From Paraglaciecola marina (GTDB lineage: Bacteria > Pseudomonadota > Gammaproteobacteria > Enterobacterales > Alteromonadaceae), in the NCBI RefSeq assembly GCF_004360155.1, contig NZ_ML178722.1, positions 1 to 64,000 of the forward strand: 64,000 nt of DNA, given 5' to 3'. Shown piece after piece: positions 18,720 to 48,750 of the stretch (position 1 is its first letter; every line of letters starts with the position of its first letter). Below the pieces are notes generated by a model. That model was not told the origin of the DNA. It saw nothing but the letters and a program-made list of their open reading frames with translations, and made no database searches. The position numbers and the translations under genes were made by a program.

Positions 18720-19145
18720 ATGGATAAAAATAAAGAACTTAAAAAAGTAGGTCTGAAAGTAACTCACCCAAGGGTCACCATTTTAAACATCCTGAAAAAT
18801 ATAGGAGATCAGCACGTCAGTGCAGAAGATATTTATAAAAGTCTATTAGAAGATGGTGAAGAAATTGGCCTTGCTACCGTATACAGAGTGCTTAACCAGT
18901 TTGATGATGCCGGTATTATAGATAGGCATCACTTTGAAGGGGGAAAATCTGTTTTTGAATTAAGCGGCAAGCATCATCACGACCATTTAGTATGTCTAAA
19001 GTGTGGCAGGGTAATTGAGTTTGAAGATAATATTATCGAGCAATGCCAAAAGGAGGTTGCAGCGAATAATAATATGACACTCACCCACCACAGCCTTTAT
19101 TTGTATGGTGAATGCAAGAATGGTTGCCCCAAAGAACAACATTAA
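18720..19145 (+). CDS. fur: ferric uptake regulator
   Basis: A 141-residue Fur. It has a winged-helix N-terminus (GLKVTHPRVTILNIL and the recognition helix ATVYRVLNQFDDAGII), the metal-binding HHHDHLVCLKCG (His85-87, His89, Cys92, Cys95) and a C-terminal CKNGC pair. With iron it represses uptake genes by binding 7-1-7 palindromes, at least five of which occur in the following 20 kb. It stands alone in front of a Fur-box-controlled receptor gene. Confidence 0.95.
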   Translation: MDKNKELKKVGLKVTHPRVTILNILKNIGDQHVSAEDIYKSLLEDGEEIGLATVYRVLNQFDDAGIIDRHHFEGGKSVFELSGKHHHDHLVCLKCGRVIEFEDNIIEQCQKEVAANNNMTLTHHSLYLYGECKNGCPKEQH

Positions 19146-19251: not shown

Positions 19252-19299
19252 AAATTACTAATGATAACTATTATCATTAGTAATTTAATAATGTATACT
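19252..19299 (+). promoter_or_regulatory. Fur box overlapping the -35 of a siderophore receptor promoter
   Basis: A perfect 35-bp palindrome (16-bp arms, 3-bp centre, 19252-19286). It contains TGATAACTATTATCA, 13 of 14 matches to the 7-1-7 Fur consensus. The -35 TTATCA (19271-19276) lies inside it, and -10 TATACT (19294-19299) follows after 17 bp. Iron-loaded Fur should block RNA polymerase. Confidence 0.92.
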
Positions 19300-31696: not shown

Positions 31697-32080
31697 ATGG
31701 GTTACAAATTTATTTCTAATTCAACTCAAATAGAGACCTATTTATATGAAAACAAAATGTCTAATGAAGAAATCAAACTAGAAGATAAAATTAGGTTCGG
31801 GTTAGAGCCAGATAACCCAACACTATTAAAAAAATATTTACGTGTGGACAATAGACTATTAGTTAACCAAAAAAGAGCTCTTTTACTATCACACTTTAAT
31901 CTACTCTTAGATACCGCAGCTGATGAATACCTTCCCTTACACTGGCGTACGCAGTGCTATGACCATATTCATCAACCTTTATTTTCATTACAGCGGATTA
32001 CTCGTTCAGTCTCGGAAAAATCTGAATTAGCCCGTCTATTTAAAGAACTTCGAATTATGGGGCATTATTTGTTCCATTAG
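31697..32080 (+). CDS. small conserved-type protein upstream of fumC (FagA-like position)
   Basis: A 127-residue cytosolic protein with no signal peptide. It is rich in Leu, Arg and Glu and largely helical (LEDKIRFGLEPDNPTLLKK; QKRALLLSHFNLLLDTAADE; HWRTQCYDHIHQPLFSLQRI). It begins 51 bp after a Fur-like inverted repeat and 64 bp before fumC. In Pseudomonas the Fur-regulated fagA-fumC-orfX-sodA operon begins with a similar small gene, so it may be a FagA counterpart, but this rests on position and size only. An alternative start is Met21. Function unknown. Confidence 0.65.
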   Translation: MGYKFISNSTQIETYLYENKMSNEEIKLEDKIRFGLEPDNPTLLKKYLRVDNRLLVNQKRALLLSHFNLLLDTAADEYLPLHWRTQCYDHIHQPLFSLQRITRSVSEKSELARLFKELRIMGHYLFH

Positions 32081-32144
32081 TATTATCTCTATAAAAAGTC
32101 ATATTTATAAATATGTATCTAGATTATCAAAAGAGGAAAAATCT

Positions 32145-33527
32145 ATGACATCAAACCGTATTGAACGAGATAGCATGGGCGAATTAGCTGTCCCAACTGA
32201 TGCACTATATGGAGCGCAGACTCAACGGGCCATAAATAACTTTCCAGTTAGTCAACAAGCCATGCCTGAGTCTTTTATCCGTGCATTGATCAAAATAAAA
32301 TCAGCTGCCGCTACCGCAAACGTTAAGCTTGGCGCTATTCCAGATAAGATGGGGGCTGCTATTAATCAGGCAGCTACAGGCCTGCTAGCTGATGAAAGGT
32401 TAATGAGTCACTTCCCAGTAGATATTTTTCAAACTGGATCAGGTACAAGCTCGAACATGAACGCTAACGAAGTATTATCTACCCTTGCAACGAATTTGTA
32501 CGGAGATAAAGTTGGGCCAAATGATCATATTAATTATGGTCAAAGTAGTAATGATGTTATCCCAACCTGTATTCATGTAAGTGCTGCTATAGAGCTAAAC
32601 ACCAAACTCCTTCCAGCTTTACAACACCTATCGGTAACCATTAAACAAAAAGCCAGTACAGTGAGACACCATGTAAAAACAGGGCGCACCCATTTAATGG
32701 ATGCCATGCCGGTAAGGTTTAACCAAAGCTTACTTAGCTGGGCGAATCAAATCGATCAAAATATAGTGCATATTGAATCCCTACTCCCAGACTTGCATAG
32801 CCTAGCTCAAGGAGGTACAGCTGTAGGTACAGGTATTAATGCTCACCCAGACTTTGCAGACGAGTTCAGCCAAGAGCTTAGCCAGCTAACAGGGTTAACC
32901 TTTACTCCAGCAGAGAATTTTTTCAGCCACATTGGTAGCCAAGATATTGCGGTGTCGTTATCTGGACAATTGAAAACCACAGCGGTTTCTATCATCAAAA
33001 TTGCTAACGATTTACGTTGGATGAACTCAGGCCCATTAGCAGGCCTGGGCGAAATAGAACTAGAAGCGCTGCAACCTGGCTCGTCTATCATGCCTGGCAA
33101 GGTCAACCCAGTTATCCCAGAAGCCGCCGCTATGGTTGGTGCCCAAGTAATAGGCAACGACACCACTATTAGTATTGCTGGGCAATCAGGTAACTTTGAA
33201 CTAAACGTGATGCTACCTGTGATAGCCCATAATTTGCTAAACAGTATTGAGCTACTTAGTAATGTAAGTGAGTTATTGGCAGATAAGGCTATAGCAACCT
33301 TTGTGGTAAAAGAAGAAAAACTTAAAGAAGCATTAACCCGTAACCCTATTTTAGTCACCGCCCTAAACGCAGTGATTGGTTATGAAAAAGCAGCTAAAAT
33401 AGCCAAACTCGCTTACGCTGAAAACCGCGCGATTATTGAGGTGGCAAGTGAAGAAACAGGCATGGATAAACAAGAATTAGCGAAATTGCTGGATCCTGAA
33501 AAACTCACCCACGGCGGCATACAATAA
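32145..33527 (+). CDS. fumC: class II fumarate hydratase, iron-independent
   Basis: A 460-residue FumC, which interconverts fumarate and malate in the citric acid cycle without an iron-sulfur cluster. It has the substrate-binding GSGTSSNMNANEV, GQSSNDVIPT, GRTHLMDAMPVR and the family signature GSSIMPGKVNP (about 313-323). Length is normal. It is placed in an apparent Fur-controlled unit behind a small gene, matching the known strategy of replacing iron-sulfur fumarases when iron is scarce. A gaggaaa ribosome binding site precedes the ATG. Confidence 0.96.
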   Translation: MTSNRIERDSMGELAVPTDALYGAQTQRAINNFPVSQQAMPESFIRALIKIKSAAATANVKLGAIPDKMGAAINQAATGLLADERLMSHFPVDIFQTGSGTSSNMNANEVLSTLATNLYGDKVGPNDHINYGQSSNDVIPTCIHVSAAIELNTKLLPALQHLSVTIKQKASTVRHHVKTGRTHLMDAMPVRFNQSLLSWANQIDQNIVHIESLLPDLHSLAQGGTAVGTGINAHPDFADEFSQELSQLTGLTFTPAENFFSHIGSQDIAVSLSGQLKTTAVSIIKIANDLRWMNSGPLAGLGEIELEALQPGSSIMPGKVNPVIPEAAAMVGAQVIGNDTTISIAGQSGNFELNVMLPVIAHNLLNSIELLSNVSELLADKAIATFVVKEEKLKEALTRNPILVTALNAVIGYEKAAKIAKLAYAENRAIIEVASEETGMDKQELAKLLDPEKLTHGGIQ

Positions 33528-36327: not shown

Positions 36328-36351
36328 AAATAATAACAATTATCATTTGCA
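36328..36351. promoter_or_regulatory. Fur box, copy 1 of an identical 24-bp operator
   Basis: TAATAACAATTATCATTTGC, with a few further shared bases on each side, is identical to 38418-38441. The core has 12 of 14 matches to the 7-1-7 Fur consensus. It lies between two divergent genes (35813-36268 minus, 36447-36716 plus) and could control both. Confidence 0.85.
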
Positions 36352-36792: not shown

Positions 36793-37083
36793 CTAGGCTG
36801 AGATACAAAATATCACCCGTCCAACTATGTACTTCCTTTCAACCCAGCCGATATCGTCAGAACTTATACTTGAATCAGAATCACCAGAAAGTCTTAATCG
36901 GCCTGAGCAGTCTATATTTTCAACACGTTTGACGATTGTGTGTAATTGCGGATGAGACACCACAACCAAACACCCATTTCTTGCTGCAAAGCCTGGCCAT
37001 ATTCCACAAATAACATAGTCATTATTCATTAAGGTAGGGTGCATACTATGCCCTACCACTCTGTGAATTTTTACTTTAAACAT
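36793..37083 (-). CDS. sodX: nickel superoxide dismutase maturation protease
   Basis: A 96-residue S24/S26-type (signal-peptidase-like) protease with the catalytic Ser13 in GHSMHPTL and Lys52 in TIVKRV, followed by a GDSDSS segment. SodX-type proteases cleave the leader of SodN so that the nickel-binding His becomes the N-terminus. It is encoded directly after sodN, with a 1-bp stop/start overlap (TAATG). Unlike true signal peptidases it has no membrane anchor. Confidence 0.9.
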   Translation of the reverse strand: MFKVKIHRVVGHSMHPTLMNNDYVICGIWPGFAARNGCLVVVSHPQLHTIVKRVENIDCSGRLRLSGDSDSSISSDDIGWVERKYIVGRVIFCISA

Positions 37084-37583
37084 TAAGCTAATTTAGGGTA
37101 GACAACCGACTCACTTGGCGGGTATGGGCAAGTAGCAATGTAAATATCAACCCCTTTAGTGGCCCAAAACATTTCTGCAAAATCGTTCACTAAGTTCAAC
37201 AAAGCAACTGCTTTATCTCGATTAATATGCTGCTTACAAGCAGAGCCGGTTAAGAGAATATTATGGACTAGCTCGCTAGCGTCAGGAAAAGCCTCAAATT
37301 GAGGCTGCTTGAAGTAATCACCCCAGATGACAACAATCTCGTCTTTTACTATTTGAGCGTGTATTTCTTTCTCGCGAACTAAACGAGCTAGTTGTGCATG
37401 GTCAGCAAGGTTTAAGCTGTCTTTACTCTCTAACTCATTAATTAAATCAATAAAACGGATAACACTTAAAGCAGCAACTTGTGCGCTACTTGGGTCATAT
37501 ATTTTACAAGGAATATCACAATGTGCTGACGCTTGCTCAAAATTTAAGATGCGATCTATCTTAGTGGTAAGTGAATGAAGCAT
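37083..37583 (-). CDS. sodN: nickel-type superoxide dismutase precursor
   Basis: A 166-residue NiSOD. A 20-residue leader precedes the nickel hook HCDIPCKIYDP, in which His21, Cys22 and Cys26 become ligands His1, Cys2 and Cys6 after cleavage. The canonical hook is HCDLPCGVYDP; here position 7 is Lys instead of Gly. The rest (ALSVIRFIDLINEL; CKQHINRDKAVALLNLVNDFAEMFW) fits the four-helix bundle. It removes superoxide without iron or manganese. Ribosome binding site GAGGAAA. It overlaps its neighbours by 1 bp on each side, indicating tight coupling. Confidence 0.95.
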   Translation of the reverse strand: MLHSLTTKIDRILNFEQASAHCDIPCKIYDPSSAQVAALSVIRFIDLINELESKDSLNLADHAQLARLVREKEIHAQIVKDEIVVIWGDYFKQPQFEAFPDASELVHNILLTGSACKQHINRDKAVALLNLVNDFAEMFWATKGVDIYIATCPYPPSESVVYPKLA

Positions 37584-37795
37584 TATATTTCCTCGCTTTT
37601 GCTATTGTCTTTATTTTTAAATTGTTTTATCCCCAAAAAAGTCATGGCAGCTACTGCAGCAACAAGAGAGCTGTAAAACAAAATATGTAAAGCATCACTA
37701 CTCCAATGACTATGATCGTGACCTTCGTGTGCAAAGGCGGCTGAGCTTAATAGGCTTAGAGCCCCAGCATAAAGAAATGTTTGAATTTTACGCAT
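37583..37795 (-). CDS. His-rich exported membrane protein of the nickel SOD operon
   Basis: A 70-residue protein with a signal peptide ending AFA. This would leave a mature N-terminus of HEGHDHSHW: five His and two acidic residues in nine positions, a strong candidate for nickel (or zinc/copper) binding. One membrane helix (about 42-57) and a charged cytosolic tail follow. It directly precedes sodN with a 1-bp overlap. A role in nickel capture or delivery is inferred; no named family was recognised. Confidence 0.75.
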   Translation of the reverse strand: MRKIQTFLYAGALSLLSSAAFAHEGHDHSHWSSDALHILFYSSLVAAVAAMTFLGIKQFKNKDNSKSEEI

Positions 37796-37806
37796 TGTTT
37801 TTCCTA

Positions 37807-38250
37807 TTAGTTGAGGGTGTTTTTAAAAGTGGTTTCAAATAAGTTTGGTATTAAAGGTGGGACTGACATTACATGTTCAGGATGATTTTTTTGGTGATTA
37901 ATTAAAGCAATATAGGTTTGGCTAACGCCCCAAATTAACGCATTGGCTCGGTAAGAATTTGGCTGTGCTTCACTTAAACAAGTGGATATTTTTTTATGAA
38001 CTTTTTCTAACTCATGCTCGGCTAAAATGGCCTTGTCTTCTCTTAAATATAAATCTGCTAAGTTGTGATAACTAATCACAACTGAAGCTACCGCAGCTTT
38101 ATGGTCAATCCAGTTATCTAATAAATATTCTGCCTGCCTTATAGCTTTGTTATAATGTGCCAATGCAGATAAAGTCTGACACCTTTCAAAACATTCATTA
38201 CCGGCGCATATTTGCGCTTTCCAAATAGTCATTTGATCTGTTTGTAGCAT
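37807..38250 (-). CDS. TPR-like protein heading the nickel SOD operon
   Basis: A 147-residue cytosolic, helical protein. ALAHYNKAIRQAEYLLDN and YHNLADLYLREDKAILAEHELEK are tetratricopeptide-like pairs. Cys14 and Cys19 and Cys23 cluster near the N-terminus (CAGNECFERC). It begins the operon TPR, His-rich protein, sodN, sodX and has a GGGGAA ribosome binding site. The 24-bp Fur operator copy lies about 170 bp upstream. It resembles in position the orfX of the Pseudomonas fumC-sodA operon. Function unknown. Confidence 0.7.
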   Translation of the reverse strand: MLQTDQMTIWKAQICAGNECFERCQTLSALAHYNKAIRQAEYLLDNWIDHKAAVASVVISYHNLADLYLREDKAILAEHELEKVHKKISTCLSEAQPNSYRANALIWGVSQTYIALINHQKNHPEHVMSVPPLIPNLFETTFKNTLN

Positions 38251-38417
38251 TACATTCCCCTAATTTGATCAAAAAATAAAACCAATTTCTGAAGTCAATA
38301 TGCCAACCAAGCATGCTTAACATGCGAGGCTTAATGCTATCCCATGTCACAGATAGTATTTATATTCAGATTGTTATGGTTTGATTTTGATTAATAGTCA
38401 TCAAGACCGATCAATAC

Positions 38418-38441
38418 AAATAATAACAATTATCATTTGCA
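38418..38441 (-). promoter_or_regulatory. Fur box, copy 2 of the identical 24-bp operator
   Basis: Same sequence as 36328-36351. Upstream of the TPR, His-rich, sodN, sodX operon. Confidence 0.85.
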
Positions 38442-38507
38442 ATAATGCGCTAAAAATGAATTTTGTCAATGGGGAAATAAAAATATCAAAAAGTTTCATA
38501 AACAATG

Positions 38508-38536
38508 TTGATAATAGTTATCATTTAGATTAATGT
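38508..38536 (+). promoter_or_regulatory. Fur box and promoter of a candidate small RNA
   Basis: TGATAATAGTTATCA (38509-38523) has 13 of 14 matches to the Fur consensus. It overlaps a -35 TTGATA (38508-38513); -10 TAATGT (38531-38536) follows after 17 bp. Confidence 0.75.
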
Positions 38537-38542
38537 GTGTTT

Positions 38543-38624
38543 GCTCTCGAGTTAAGTTTATTGGTCTTTACTTAACTCAATCCCGAACGGGAAGGTGTAT
38601 AGGCGCTTTCCCGTTTTCTTTTTT
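38543..38624 (+). ncRNA. candidate iron-responsive small RNA with two hairpins
   Basis: From a predicted start about 7 bp after the -10, a transcript of about 80 nt would form a first perfect 9-bp hairpin (GAGTTAAGT 38549-38557 with ACTTAACTC 38570-38578, 12-nt loop). A second is an intrinsic terminator (AACGGGAA 38586-38593 with TTCCCGTT 38608-38615, then TTCTTTTTT). TCCCG-AA-CGGGA can form an alternative structure. No gene fits inside it, and the next gene has its own promoter 240 bp away. This is the architecture of Fur-repressed regulators such as RyhB or PrrF, without visible sequence similarity to them. Confidence 0.6.
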
Positions 38625-38863
38625 AAAGTAAATCCCTCCACATATTGGTCGCCTTCTATAGAATTACAAATAGGTGTAACTAACTCTCATACTGCTACAT
38701 CTAATTCTCCAAAATTAGATTTTTGATAATTGGAAAAGTTAGTAAATTAAAAAGTCTTTTGAAAATTTGAAGTAACACCCAACATTTGTCAGTTTTTTTT
38801 ACACAAATAAAGATTAACATAAAAACAACAACGCAAACCTTTGTTTTAAAAGAGTTTTCCTCA

Positions 38864-38879
38864 TGGCCCGCAAATTGCT
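38864..38879 (+). promoter_or_regulatory. sigma-54 promoter of PEP-CTERM gene
   Basis: TGGCCCGCAAATTGCT matches the -24/-12 consensus TGGCACG-N4-TTGCW at all but one position, with the obligatory 10-bp GG-to-GC spacing. It is 85 bp before the PEP-CTERM gene. Confidence 0.85.
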
Positions 38880-38963
38880 ATTGTCGTTATGTGTTACTAA
38901 ATAAATTCGTATGTATCTAAAAAAAATTGATACGTTGTTACTTTAATTACTTAGGAATTAATA

Positions 38964-39575
38964 ATGAAATCTAAATTACTTTATTCTTTTTTAGCTGGTG
39001 TTTCATTTCTATTTGCAGCATCTACGCAAGCAACCCTCATTAACTCAATAACTGGAGATTTAGTTACTGATTACAATCAGACTTCGGATGTGGTTTTAGA
39101 TTTAGAAGGAACAACCCTTAAGGGTGCATACAACGTAAATGTTGCAAACTCTCTATACAATGTTGTTTTTGAAGACCTAGTTTTGAGTACACTTGACACT
39201 TCTTTATTCACTCAAGAAGAAGCAGAGCTAATATCAAACACCTTACTAAGTGATTTGTTTTTTGATGCAATGGAAGATTTATTTGTAAATGTAAATGGTT
39301 GCTATGGATATTGTCGAATATTCACTGTTTTTGATATCGATGGCAATAATTCTGCTGGGTATTACCTTGAAAATAATGCATCTCAAGAAAACTCTTCCTC
39401 TGTTCTTTATTTATCAAGCTCTACAGATTCGACTGACGCAAATTATGCCACTACAGCAACTTGGACAATCCAAACTTCTGAAGCAACAGCAGAAGTTCCA
39501 GCACCTGCAGCTTTGTTACTTGTACTAATTGGAATCGCTGGTATTGCTTTTAGTCGTCGCAGAGCATTGCGTTAG
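38964..39575 (+). CDS. PEP-CTERM sorting-domain protein
   Basis: A 203-residue exported protein with a signal peptide (about 1-23, SFLFAASTQA). It has an unrecognised central domain with Asp/Asn-rich beta-like sequence and a Cys pair (NGCYGYCRIF). The C-terminal sorting signal is VPAPAALLLVLIGIAGIAF followed by RRR. PEP-CTERM proteins are processed by an exosortase (none in this window) and go to the cell surface or matrix. Controlled by a strong sigma-54 promoter. Ribosome binding site TAGGAATT, shared with the second PEP-CTERM gene. Confidence 0.88.
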   Translation: MKSKLLYSFLAGVSFLFAASTQATLINSITGDLVTDYNQTSDVVLDLEGTTLKGAYNVNVANSLYNVVFEDLVLSTLDTSLFTQEEAELISNTLLSDLFFDAMEDLFVNVNGCYGYCRIFTVFDIDGNNSAGYYLENNASQENSSSVLYLSSSTDSTDANYATTATWTIQTSEATAEVPAPAALLLVLIGIAGIAFSRRRALR

Positions 39576-41477: not shown

Positions 41478-41635
41478 TTTAGTGTAAATCAATTGTAAAA
41501 AATAAAGGCCTGCTAAGATTTTTATGATTCGAAATGATTATCAGGCCTGAAACTAAATTAACACGTCAGCCTCACCAATTAACCCTCGAATATCATCTAC
41601 TTACTTGCTATATTTCGCGGCCTAAAGATAAGGTT

Positions 41636-41776
41636 TTGTGTGGTGTACGATTCTAGTTACAAGCATACAAATTAAATGGGAAGTTGGTGAGAAGCCAGCA
41701 CTGTACCCGCAACTGTATACGTTCTTAGTCTATGTAAATAGATGTAAAAGTACGTGAGTCAGATACCAGCCTCATC
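41636..41776 (+). ncRNA. cobalamin riboswitch 1
   Basis: Conserved core TGGGAAGTTGGTGAGAAGCC followed by CTGTACCCGCAACTGT and the B12 box AGTCAGATACCAGCCT (about 41757-41772) define an adenosylcobalamin-class aptamer. Just downstream TTGGCC and GGCCAA (about 41790-41811) can form a regulatory hairpin. It precedes btuD-btuC-cobC-cobQ-cobO-btuF and should lower their expression when B12 is abundant. Confidence 0.93.
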
Positions 41777-41960
41777 CATTATTGTAATGTTGGCCTATCA
41801 ACTTTGGCCAATTTGATATTCGTGCGGGAATACACGGACAACATACTCTTGTAACAGCTCTGCTGATTCTCGATATGCTTTCCTGCTCGCTATTTTTCAC
41901 CTTGGTGGTTTGATTGACACATGATTTTAATGAGCCCGAAACATTAGTAAGAACTAGCAT
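41777..41960 (+). promoter_or_regulatory. leader between riboswitch 1 and btuD
   Basis: Gene-free expression platform. It holds the TTGGCC/GGCCAA hairpin and a second possible one around 41821-41835 (CGTG and CACG). No other feature is seen. Confidence 0.5.
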
Positions 41961-48513: not shown

Positions 48514-48581
48514 ATATATCAATGGTGTAAACCCCGTTGACAATATCCTTAACTAAACGTATCTTGCACGCCACTATTCTA

Positions 48582-48750
48582 GGTGCCTATCGCTTATTTA
48601 CTTATTGACAAATAAACTGGATAGGGTAAACGGGAAGTGTGGTGAAATTCCACTGCTGCCCCCGCAACGGTAATATGCAAATTCGCATTAAAGCCCGACA
48701 CCGGCCTAAGTAAATAGCTATTTTTACGTATGGAGCGGCGGGCTTCATTA
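48582..48750 (+). ncRNA. cobalamin riboswitch 2
   Basis: Core ACGGGAAGTGTGGTGAAATTCC, TGCTGCCCCCGCAACGGTAA and the B12 box AAGCCCGACACCGGCC (about 48691-48706). GCTTATTTACTT (about 48592) can pair with AAGTAAATAGC (about 48708) as the closing stem. GCGGCGGGC downstream can pair with GCCC of the box region as the expression platform. It precedes btuB. Confidence 0.93.

Follow-up and report, generated by a model that had tools for sequence, protein, structure and literature searches.

In enterobacteria and vibrios, RyhB is an intergenic, Fur-boxed small RNA (sRNA) that ends at a terminator and acts on iron-sulphur enzymes of the citric acid cycle. PrrF of Pseudomonas is likewise a Fur-boxed, iron-sparing sRNA and is present in two copies. 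Other bacterial groups follow the same logic through other iron-responsive RNAs, such as NrrF, HrrF, BrrF, IsrR, and FsrA. A further sRNA, s-SodF, comes from the 3' UTR of the Streptomyces sodF gene. It is reported to be part of a switch from Fe-SOD to Ni-SOD or back that is run by a Fur-family regulator, the nickel-responsive Nur, and to be cut from the sodF mRNA (PMC3919588).

We analyzed a stretch of 64,000 nt from Paraglaciecola marina (GCF_004360155.1, contig NZ_ML178722.1, positions 1 to 64,000 of the forward strand; hereafter the window). A unit within it very probably represents, as judged by sequence comparison, a new family of Fur-repressed, trans-acting, and iron-sparing sRNAs of about 80 nt, which would resemble RyhB and PrrF in function and pair with messages of iron-sulphur enzymes. 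Like RyhB, it is a Fur-boxed intergenic unit with a terminator, and its predicted targets are iron-sulphur enzymes of the citric acid cycle; like PrrF, it occurs in two copies in some genomes (G011 and G019). Unlike the Streptomyces sRNA as reported there, it appears as a free-standing Fur-boxed gene, and sodB is unsupported as a target.

Relationship to Known RNA Families

When 6 and 16 member loci were searched with 4227 Rfam 15 families at E <= 10, no convincing match was found at the element. Neither RyhB nor PrrF was among the matches, nor was there a convincing match to NrrF, HrrF, BrrF, IsrR, or FsrA, a comparison limited to those of them present in Rfam. Matches overlapping the element were confined to STnc310 on the opposite strand (E 3.4) and sX13 (E 9) in L049, which stay well under the gathering scores. 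With the RyhB model (RF00057), none of the 22 genomes of the genus exceeded the cut-off, and the Escherichia coli control matched; one subthreshold match in G004 (28.3 of 55 bits) lies away from the element. The PrrF model (RF00444) also gave none of 22 over the cut-off, with no positive control over it either; its weak matches occur in all 22 genomes (best E 0.002) and in 9 of 14 controls, no Pseudomonas being among the matching controls. The lack of similarity to RyhB and PrrF noticed in the initial annotation thus holds at the level of Rfam models.

In the open literature retrieved on sRNAs of Alteromonas, Alteromonadales, and Paraglaciecola, RyhB-type RNAs, and Fur boxes, titles and the opening parts of abstracts contained no description of such an RNA. 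A start-site map of A. macleodii Te101 lists 127 chromosomal sRNAs, and the family may be unnamed among them (PMC5864184). In the main text of a study of A. macleodii under iron limitation, the term "sRNA" is absent and "small RNA" appears once, in connection with CsrA and motility (PMC7190382). To all appearance, the RNA family is new and its functional kind is known.

The Candidate sRNA Unit in the Window

The features of the unit are as follows.

38508..38536, plus strand: putative promoter, with -35 TTGATA (38508-38513), a 17-bp spacer, and a weak -10 (38531-38536); chosen from columns that the first six members share
38509..38523, plus strand: Fur box TGATAATAGTTATCA, overlapping the -35 and the spacer, with one mismatch to TGATAATNATTATCA
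38543..38624, plus strand: candidate small RNA gene of about 80 nt (fold z -5.66; R2 model match)
38549..38578, plus strand: hairpin 1, which displays the pairing loop (nine perfect pairs, loop of 12)
38561..38569, plus strand: loop core UUGGUCUUU, with GGUC[CU]U at 38563-38568, complementary to AAAGACCA in sdhC
38585..38624, plus strand: hairpin 2 and U-tract, a predicted intrinsic terminator (terminator scan; family-wide pair changes)

The layout proposed initially, a near-perfect Fur box over a promoter followed by a perfect 9-bp hairpin, a linker, and an intrinsic terminator, with no gene inside, was recovered in each of its parts. The Fur box agrees with the consensus at 13 of 14 positions, the linker measures 6 nt, and hairpin 2 (38585-38616) has 14 pairs followed by TCTTTTTT. 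No open reading frame of at least 60 amino acids overlaps 38251-38963. Between the terminator and the next gene, whose first base is 38964, there are 340 bp, and that gene has, as had been noticed, a sigma-54-like site of its own (TGGCCC-N5-TTGCT at 38864-38879, read by eye against the sigma-54 consensus). In the whole window, five Fur-box matches with at most two mismatches were observed against 0.85 expected, a number reached in 1 of 100 shuffles.

TTGATA and ATTTAGATTA are unvarying among the first six family members; in other genera, the -35 position often reads TTGCAA. We infer the placing of the -10 and a transcript start near 38543; the promoter scan picked TTCATA/TATCAT (9/12) in the unit. 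Across a 2.2-kb stretch, the scans returned 11 promoter-like sites (8.1 +/- 2.9 expected) and three terminators (1.3 +/- 1.0 expected). Such scans alone hardly exceed chance, and the case for an sRNA therefore rests on the family evidence. The presumed 82-nt transcript (38543-38624) has a folding energy of -30.7 kcal/mol, compared with -14.8 +/- 2.8 kcal/mol for shuffled sequences (z -5.66; 0 of 200 as low).

A Conserved RNA Family in Alteromonadaceae

BLAST searches with the element found matches in 4 of 22 Paraglaciecola genomes, the window's own among them; G011 and G019 each carry two copies, at differing places with new neighborhoods. A model comprising the promoter and hairpin 1 (R1) was built from six sequences, and R1 together with a pattern search provided 32 members, whose RNA portions alone were aligned with MAFFT. 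A second model (R2) describes the RNA part alone, without Fur box or promoter. In the window, R2 matches 38536-38621 (E 1.9e-10), the window itself being a training member.

At E <= 0.001, R2 matched 61 of 395 sampled Alteromonadaceae genomes from 10 of 52 genera, training members counted. These include 30 genomes of the genus g24, which is probably Alteromonas, and 12 of the 22 Paraglaciecola genomes. Outside G011 and G019, nearly all genomes with a match have a single one. In an order-wide sample, 11 of 394 genomes matched at E <= 0.01, eight of them within the Alteromonadaceae; the weak R2 matches L087, L089, and L090 outside that family have a poor Fur box (7-9/14) and were dropped as chance. 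Among the 19 matches of the pattern search, seven were known loci, and L064 and L069 were confirmed as members. Ten pattern matches (in Emticicia, Pedobacter, Pseudoalteromonas, and others) were rejected, as R1 found nothing there at E <= 0.1 except L057 (0.05); the pattern match L067 failed R2 as well. A third sRNA-like copy was noticed in the metagenome-assembled genome G019 (L286, on G019:C82; R1 E 1.7e-5; loop CACTGGTCTTGGCTTAGCG), whose Fur box appears decayed by eye.

Conservation and covariation of the hairpins in relatives had been set beforehand as a test of the sRNA reading, and both proved to be strong. RNAalifold, with no structure supplied, predicts both hairpins from the 32-member alignment. 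All 19 consensus pairs show compensatory two-sided changes (7/7 in hairpin 1 and 12/12 in hairpin 2). Paired cells amount to 91.9% (72.5% in shuffles) and double-change cells to 127 (40.5 in shuffles), a value equaled in 0 of 500 shuffles, which ignore relatedness. When the structure was slid along the alignment, 36-41% of cells were paired and 14-33 cells showed double changes. On the R1-fitted alignment A3 (33 rows, the chance match L057 still among them), hairpin 1 has two-sided changes in 9/9 pairs and 95.3% paired cells versus 73.9%. Every one of the 32 aligned members has GGUC[CU]U as its loop core, and loop lengths differ by single bases.

At least five T were found in the eight bases past hairpin 2 in 17 of 32 members (trimmed by script, L044 being mis-trimmed). 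The U-tract is weak in part of the members, so that termination is doubtful for some; L009, L010, L029, L037-L040, L043, and L048 keep hairpin 2 and have at most three T in the next eight bases. Many members begin with UGCCUG (columns 9-14 of alignment A4), which the window's member lacks; this 5' end might base-pair with GGCAG in the 5' arm of the terminator hairpin.

Fur Boxes Upstream of Family Members

Because R1 contains the promoter, its matches are no independent proof of a Fur box, and R2 was used instead. Of 34 R2 matches read, L131 was excluded, being the same place as the training locus L064, which left 33 new sequences. A Fur-box match of at least 10/14 lies within 80 nt upstream in 30 of these, all but L087, L089, and L090, and in 27 of the 30 the best match lies 12 or 13 nt before the start of the R2 model. 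At 20 of the 30 loci, no other 80-nt window equaled the Fur-box score; at the other ten, one or a few did. Some of the matches in new members reach only 10-11/14. As R2 is blind to the Fur box, the matches upstream independently support control by Fur.

Predicted Targets: acnB and sdhC

Pairing was computed for the acnB, sdhC, and sodB mRNAs, always against the sRNA from their own genome, with 300 shuffled loops as background. The targets named initially fared differently: the aconitase acnB was supported in g24 and sdhC in part, and sodB was not supported (3/22 pairs passing), serving in effect as a control.

Among the 30 R2-positive g24 genomes, 26 have the usual acnB and four gave none at E <= 1e-70. 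GACC occurs between -70 and -20 of the acnB start in 25 of the 26 leaders, and in 24 of the 26 genomes the duplex of leader and cognate loop beats 95% of 300 shuffled loops. Exact complementarity extends over up to 15 bp, and neither strand of the 3.6-kb locus holds a longer run in 19 of the 26. For 25 distinct g24 pairs, matched partners have -20.3 kcal/mol versus -18.7 kcal/mol for swapped ones, and 0 of 20,000 permutations were as good, a statistic that ignores descent. The site tends to change together with the loop: G-C replaces A-U in G356, A-U replaces G-C in G243, and A-U replaces C-G in G254, G366, and G371. Four bases before GGUC, the pair is U-A in 10 of 25 and A-U in 12 of 25. From these comparisons, acnB is strongly supported as a predicted target of the sRNA in this one related genus.

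Outside g24, the Shine-Dalgarno sequence AGGACCA can pair with UGGUCCU or UGGUCUU in several genera, but only 6 of 19 acnB pairs reached P <= 0.05, and acnB was not retained as a target there. The usual acnB is missing from the window's genome, where the best match is a divergent paralogue (E 2.0e-58); thus, the strongest target of the family is absent there. The paralogue occurs alone in G000 (E 2.0e-58) and G019 (E 2.1e-60), and both acnB-type genes are found, about 3 kb apart, in G002, G004, and G011.

In 24 of 25 leaders with the site (the exception is G315), it is enclosed by a predicted stem. The stem letters vary by subgroup (TCCTG/CAGGA, CTTGCG/CGCAAG), tandem CAAGACCGT units are present (two in G361 and three in G393), and the mean unpaired probability of the site is 0.44-0.97, the site being partly paired in some leaders. 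Some 30 nt separate it from the ribosome-binding site further downstream; RyhB usually pairs near start codons. We tentatively propose, at somewhat less than even chances, that the acnB leader of Alteromonas-like bacteria is a dedicated stem-loop with one to three sRNA-complementary loop sites that co-evolve with the loop of the sRNA, and that a loop-loop (kissing) contact between two hairpins made for this purpose might control aconitase.

For sdhC, 11 of 22 sRNA-target pairs formed a duplex at P <= 0.05. Exact matches of 9-13 bases link seven loops to the stretch around AAAGACCAGU in codons 4-7. In G057, sdhC reads AAAGACCCGU and the sRNA has CGGGUCUU, a matching change, with an energy no better than in shuffles (P 0.24). 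In the window's genome, the duplex at the sdhC start has -15.8 kcal/mol versus -7.7 +/- 1.9 kcal/mol for shuffled loops (0/300), lower than at all 349 sampled gene starts (459 kb, lowest -14.8 kcal/mol, by a rough start rule). This value was scored at the corrected sdhC start; the sequence around the erroneous automatic start ranked 278 of 349. The best duplex covers -21..+1, over the ribosome-binding site, and the AAAGACCA site has -12.5 kcal/mol. It is likely, on this complementarity, that sdhC is a second target.

A different reading of the same data is that the sRNA is real and Fur-boxed but has main targets other than acnB and sdhC, the complementarities being due to chance or to constraint on coding sequence. 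The sdhC site sits in codons for the conserved QRPVNL motif, and its letters are kept in Paraglaciecola where no sRNA was found, being the same in 9 of 9 sRNA-negative genomes with an sdhC match; in several other genera in which no sRNA was detected, by contrast, the stretch reads CGUCCU. The weak acnB result outside g24 (6/19) and the small number of target genes examined (three) also speak for this reading. On the other hand, the g24 acnB site lies upstream of the start codon, pairs over up to 15 bp, and co-changes with the loop, and we consider this reading unlikely.

The explanation preferred here is an iron-sparing sRNA with mRNAs of iron-sulphur enzymes as its pairing partners. With iron present, Fur on the promoter would silence the gene; when iron runs out, Fur would be released and the sRNA transcribed up to hairpin 2. 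The loop of hairpin 1 (core GGUC[CU]U) would then pair, presumably with a need for Hfq, with the acnB leader in Alteromonas-like relatives and with the sdhC start in several genera, that of the window included. Such pairing would lower these messages and yield less of the acnB and sdhC products, and the iron-free substitutes fumC and Ni-SOD would rise through the same release of Fur. The proposed mechanism fits what has been measured in iron-limited A. macleodii, where most citric-acid-cycle transcripts go down, fumC goes up 20-fold, and Ni-SOD goes up (PMC7190382). The initial reading as an iron-starvation sRNA appears largely right in view of the family, its covariation, the Fur boxes, and the target pairing.

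In an ocean short of iron, much organic matter is consumed by Alteromonas and related bacteria, and measurements show that they turn away from iron enzymes when iron is limiting (PMC7190382). The sRNA is a concrete candidate regulator, with predicted targets, in several Alteromonadaceae genera. The RyhB strategy seems to have arisen independently once more in this RNA, and its pairs with acnB offer a natural series for the joint change of an sRNA and its target.

Genomic Context of Family Members

The surroundings of the unit in the window include the following features.

38421..38435, minus strand: second Fur-like site, before the divergent Ni-SOD operon (two mismatches)
36793..38250, minus strand: presumed Ni-SOD operon (Sod_Ni E 9.8e-48; a single operon as suggested by spacing)
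31697..33527, plus strand: fagA-like gene (31697-32080) and fumC (32145-33527), a class II iron-free fumarase (Pfam, fumC)

We compared 63 family loci, with flanks of mostly 1.5-2 kb (L064 and L131 are one place). The iron-free fumarase, to which the sRNA had been linked initially, is also a neighbor in some relatives: the sRNA occupies varied places but often has iron-related genes nearby, fumC flanking it at 6 of the 63 loci and a fagA-like gene at four of those six; the Ni-SOD neighborhood is seen in the window alone (1/63). A Fur-family gene is present in the flanks of five loci, one of them a fragment match. A lipoprotein gene lies beside the sRNA in 26 of the 63, and the downstream gene is not common to lineages. 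That neighbors differ between loci speaks for action in trans.

The context also bears on whether the unit is a cis-acting leader or attenuator of the gene at 38964 rather than a trans-acting RNA. It shares the strand of that gene and precedes it by 340 bp; nevertheless, the gene (203 amino acids) is found in 1 of 63 loci, the lipoprotein gene present in 26 is convergent in the three of these with an established gene order, the terminator closes the unit, and the 38964 gene has its own sigma-54-like site. A cis-acting role is therefore very unlikely. Even less probable is a conserved DNA element, such as a repeat or recombination site, sitting at Fur boxes by chance: the two copies at different places in G011 and G019 would suit it, but nearly all other genomes have one match, the distance to the Fur box is fixed, and the element has a terminator-like hairpin and a pairing partner in acnB. 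Equally hard to credit is a small peptide gene or dual-function RNA, as the 12-codon GTG frame seen by eye across hairpin 1 in the window begins before the predicted 5' end without a visible Shine-Dalgarno sequence, and loop lengths vary by single bases among members.

Other Features of the Window

The presumed Ni-SOD operon encodes a 147-aa protein (DUF2753, below cut-off), a 70-aa protein, Ni-SOD (37083-37583), and an S24/S26-type peptidase. Minus-strand promoter-like sequences TTGACA (38469) and CATTAT (38442) are present at the second Fur-like site (scan 10/12). The 15-mer of this site, TAATAACAATTATCA, recurs at 36331-36345, near the start of a 179-aa minus-strand open reading frame, which is perhaps another Fur-controlled gene of the locus. 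The fagA-like gene and fumC are about 5 kb from the sRNA unit. The former was recognized by tblastn with a 121-aa protein from L134 (41% over 100 amino acids).

Farther away, a Fur-family homologue at 18750-19106 shows 36% identity to the Fur-like protein of L005, and a one-mismatch Fur-box match (19262-19276) lies about 155 bp beyond it. The 203-aa protein downstream of the sRNA (38964-39575) has no match in Pfam; by eye, it ends in a PEP-CTERM-like tail, VPAPAALLLVLIGIAGIAFSRRRA. At gathering scores, Rfam detected only two cobalamin riboswitches in the window, neither at the sRNA unit, both on the plus strand (41621-41788, E 2.3e-11; 48564-48723, E 5.1e-12). The first is followed on its 3' side by genes that resemble, by eye, those for an ABC transporter, a permease, and cobyric acid synthase.
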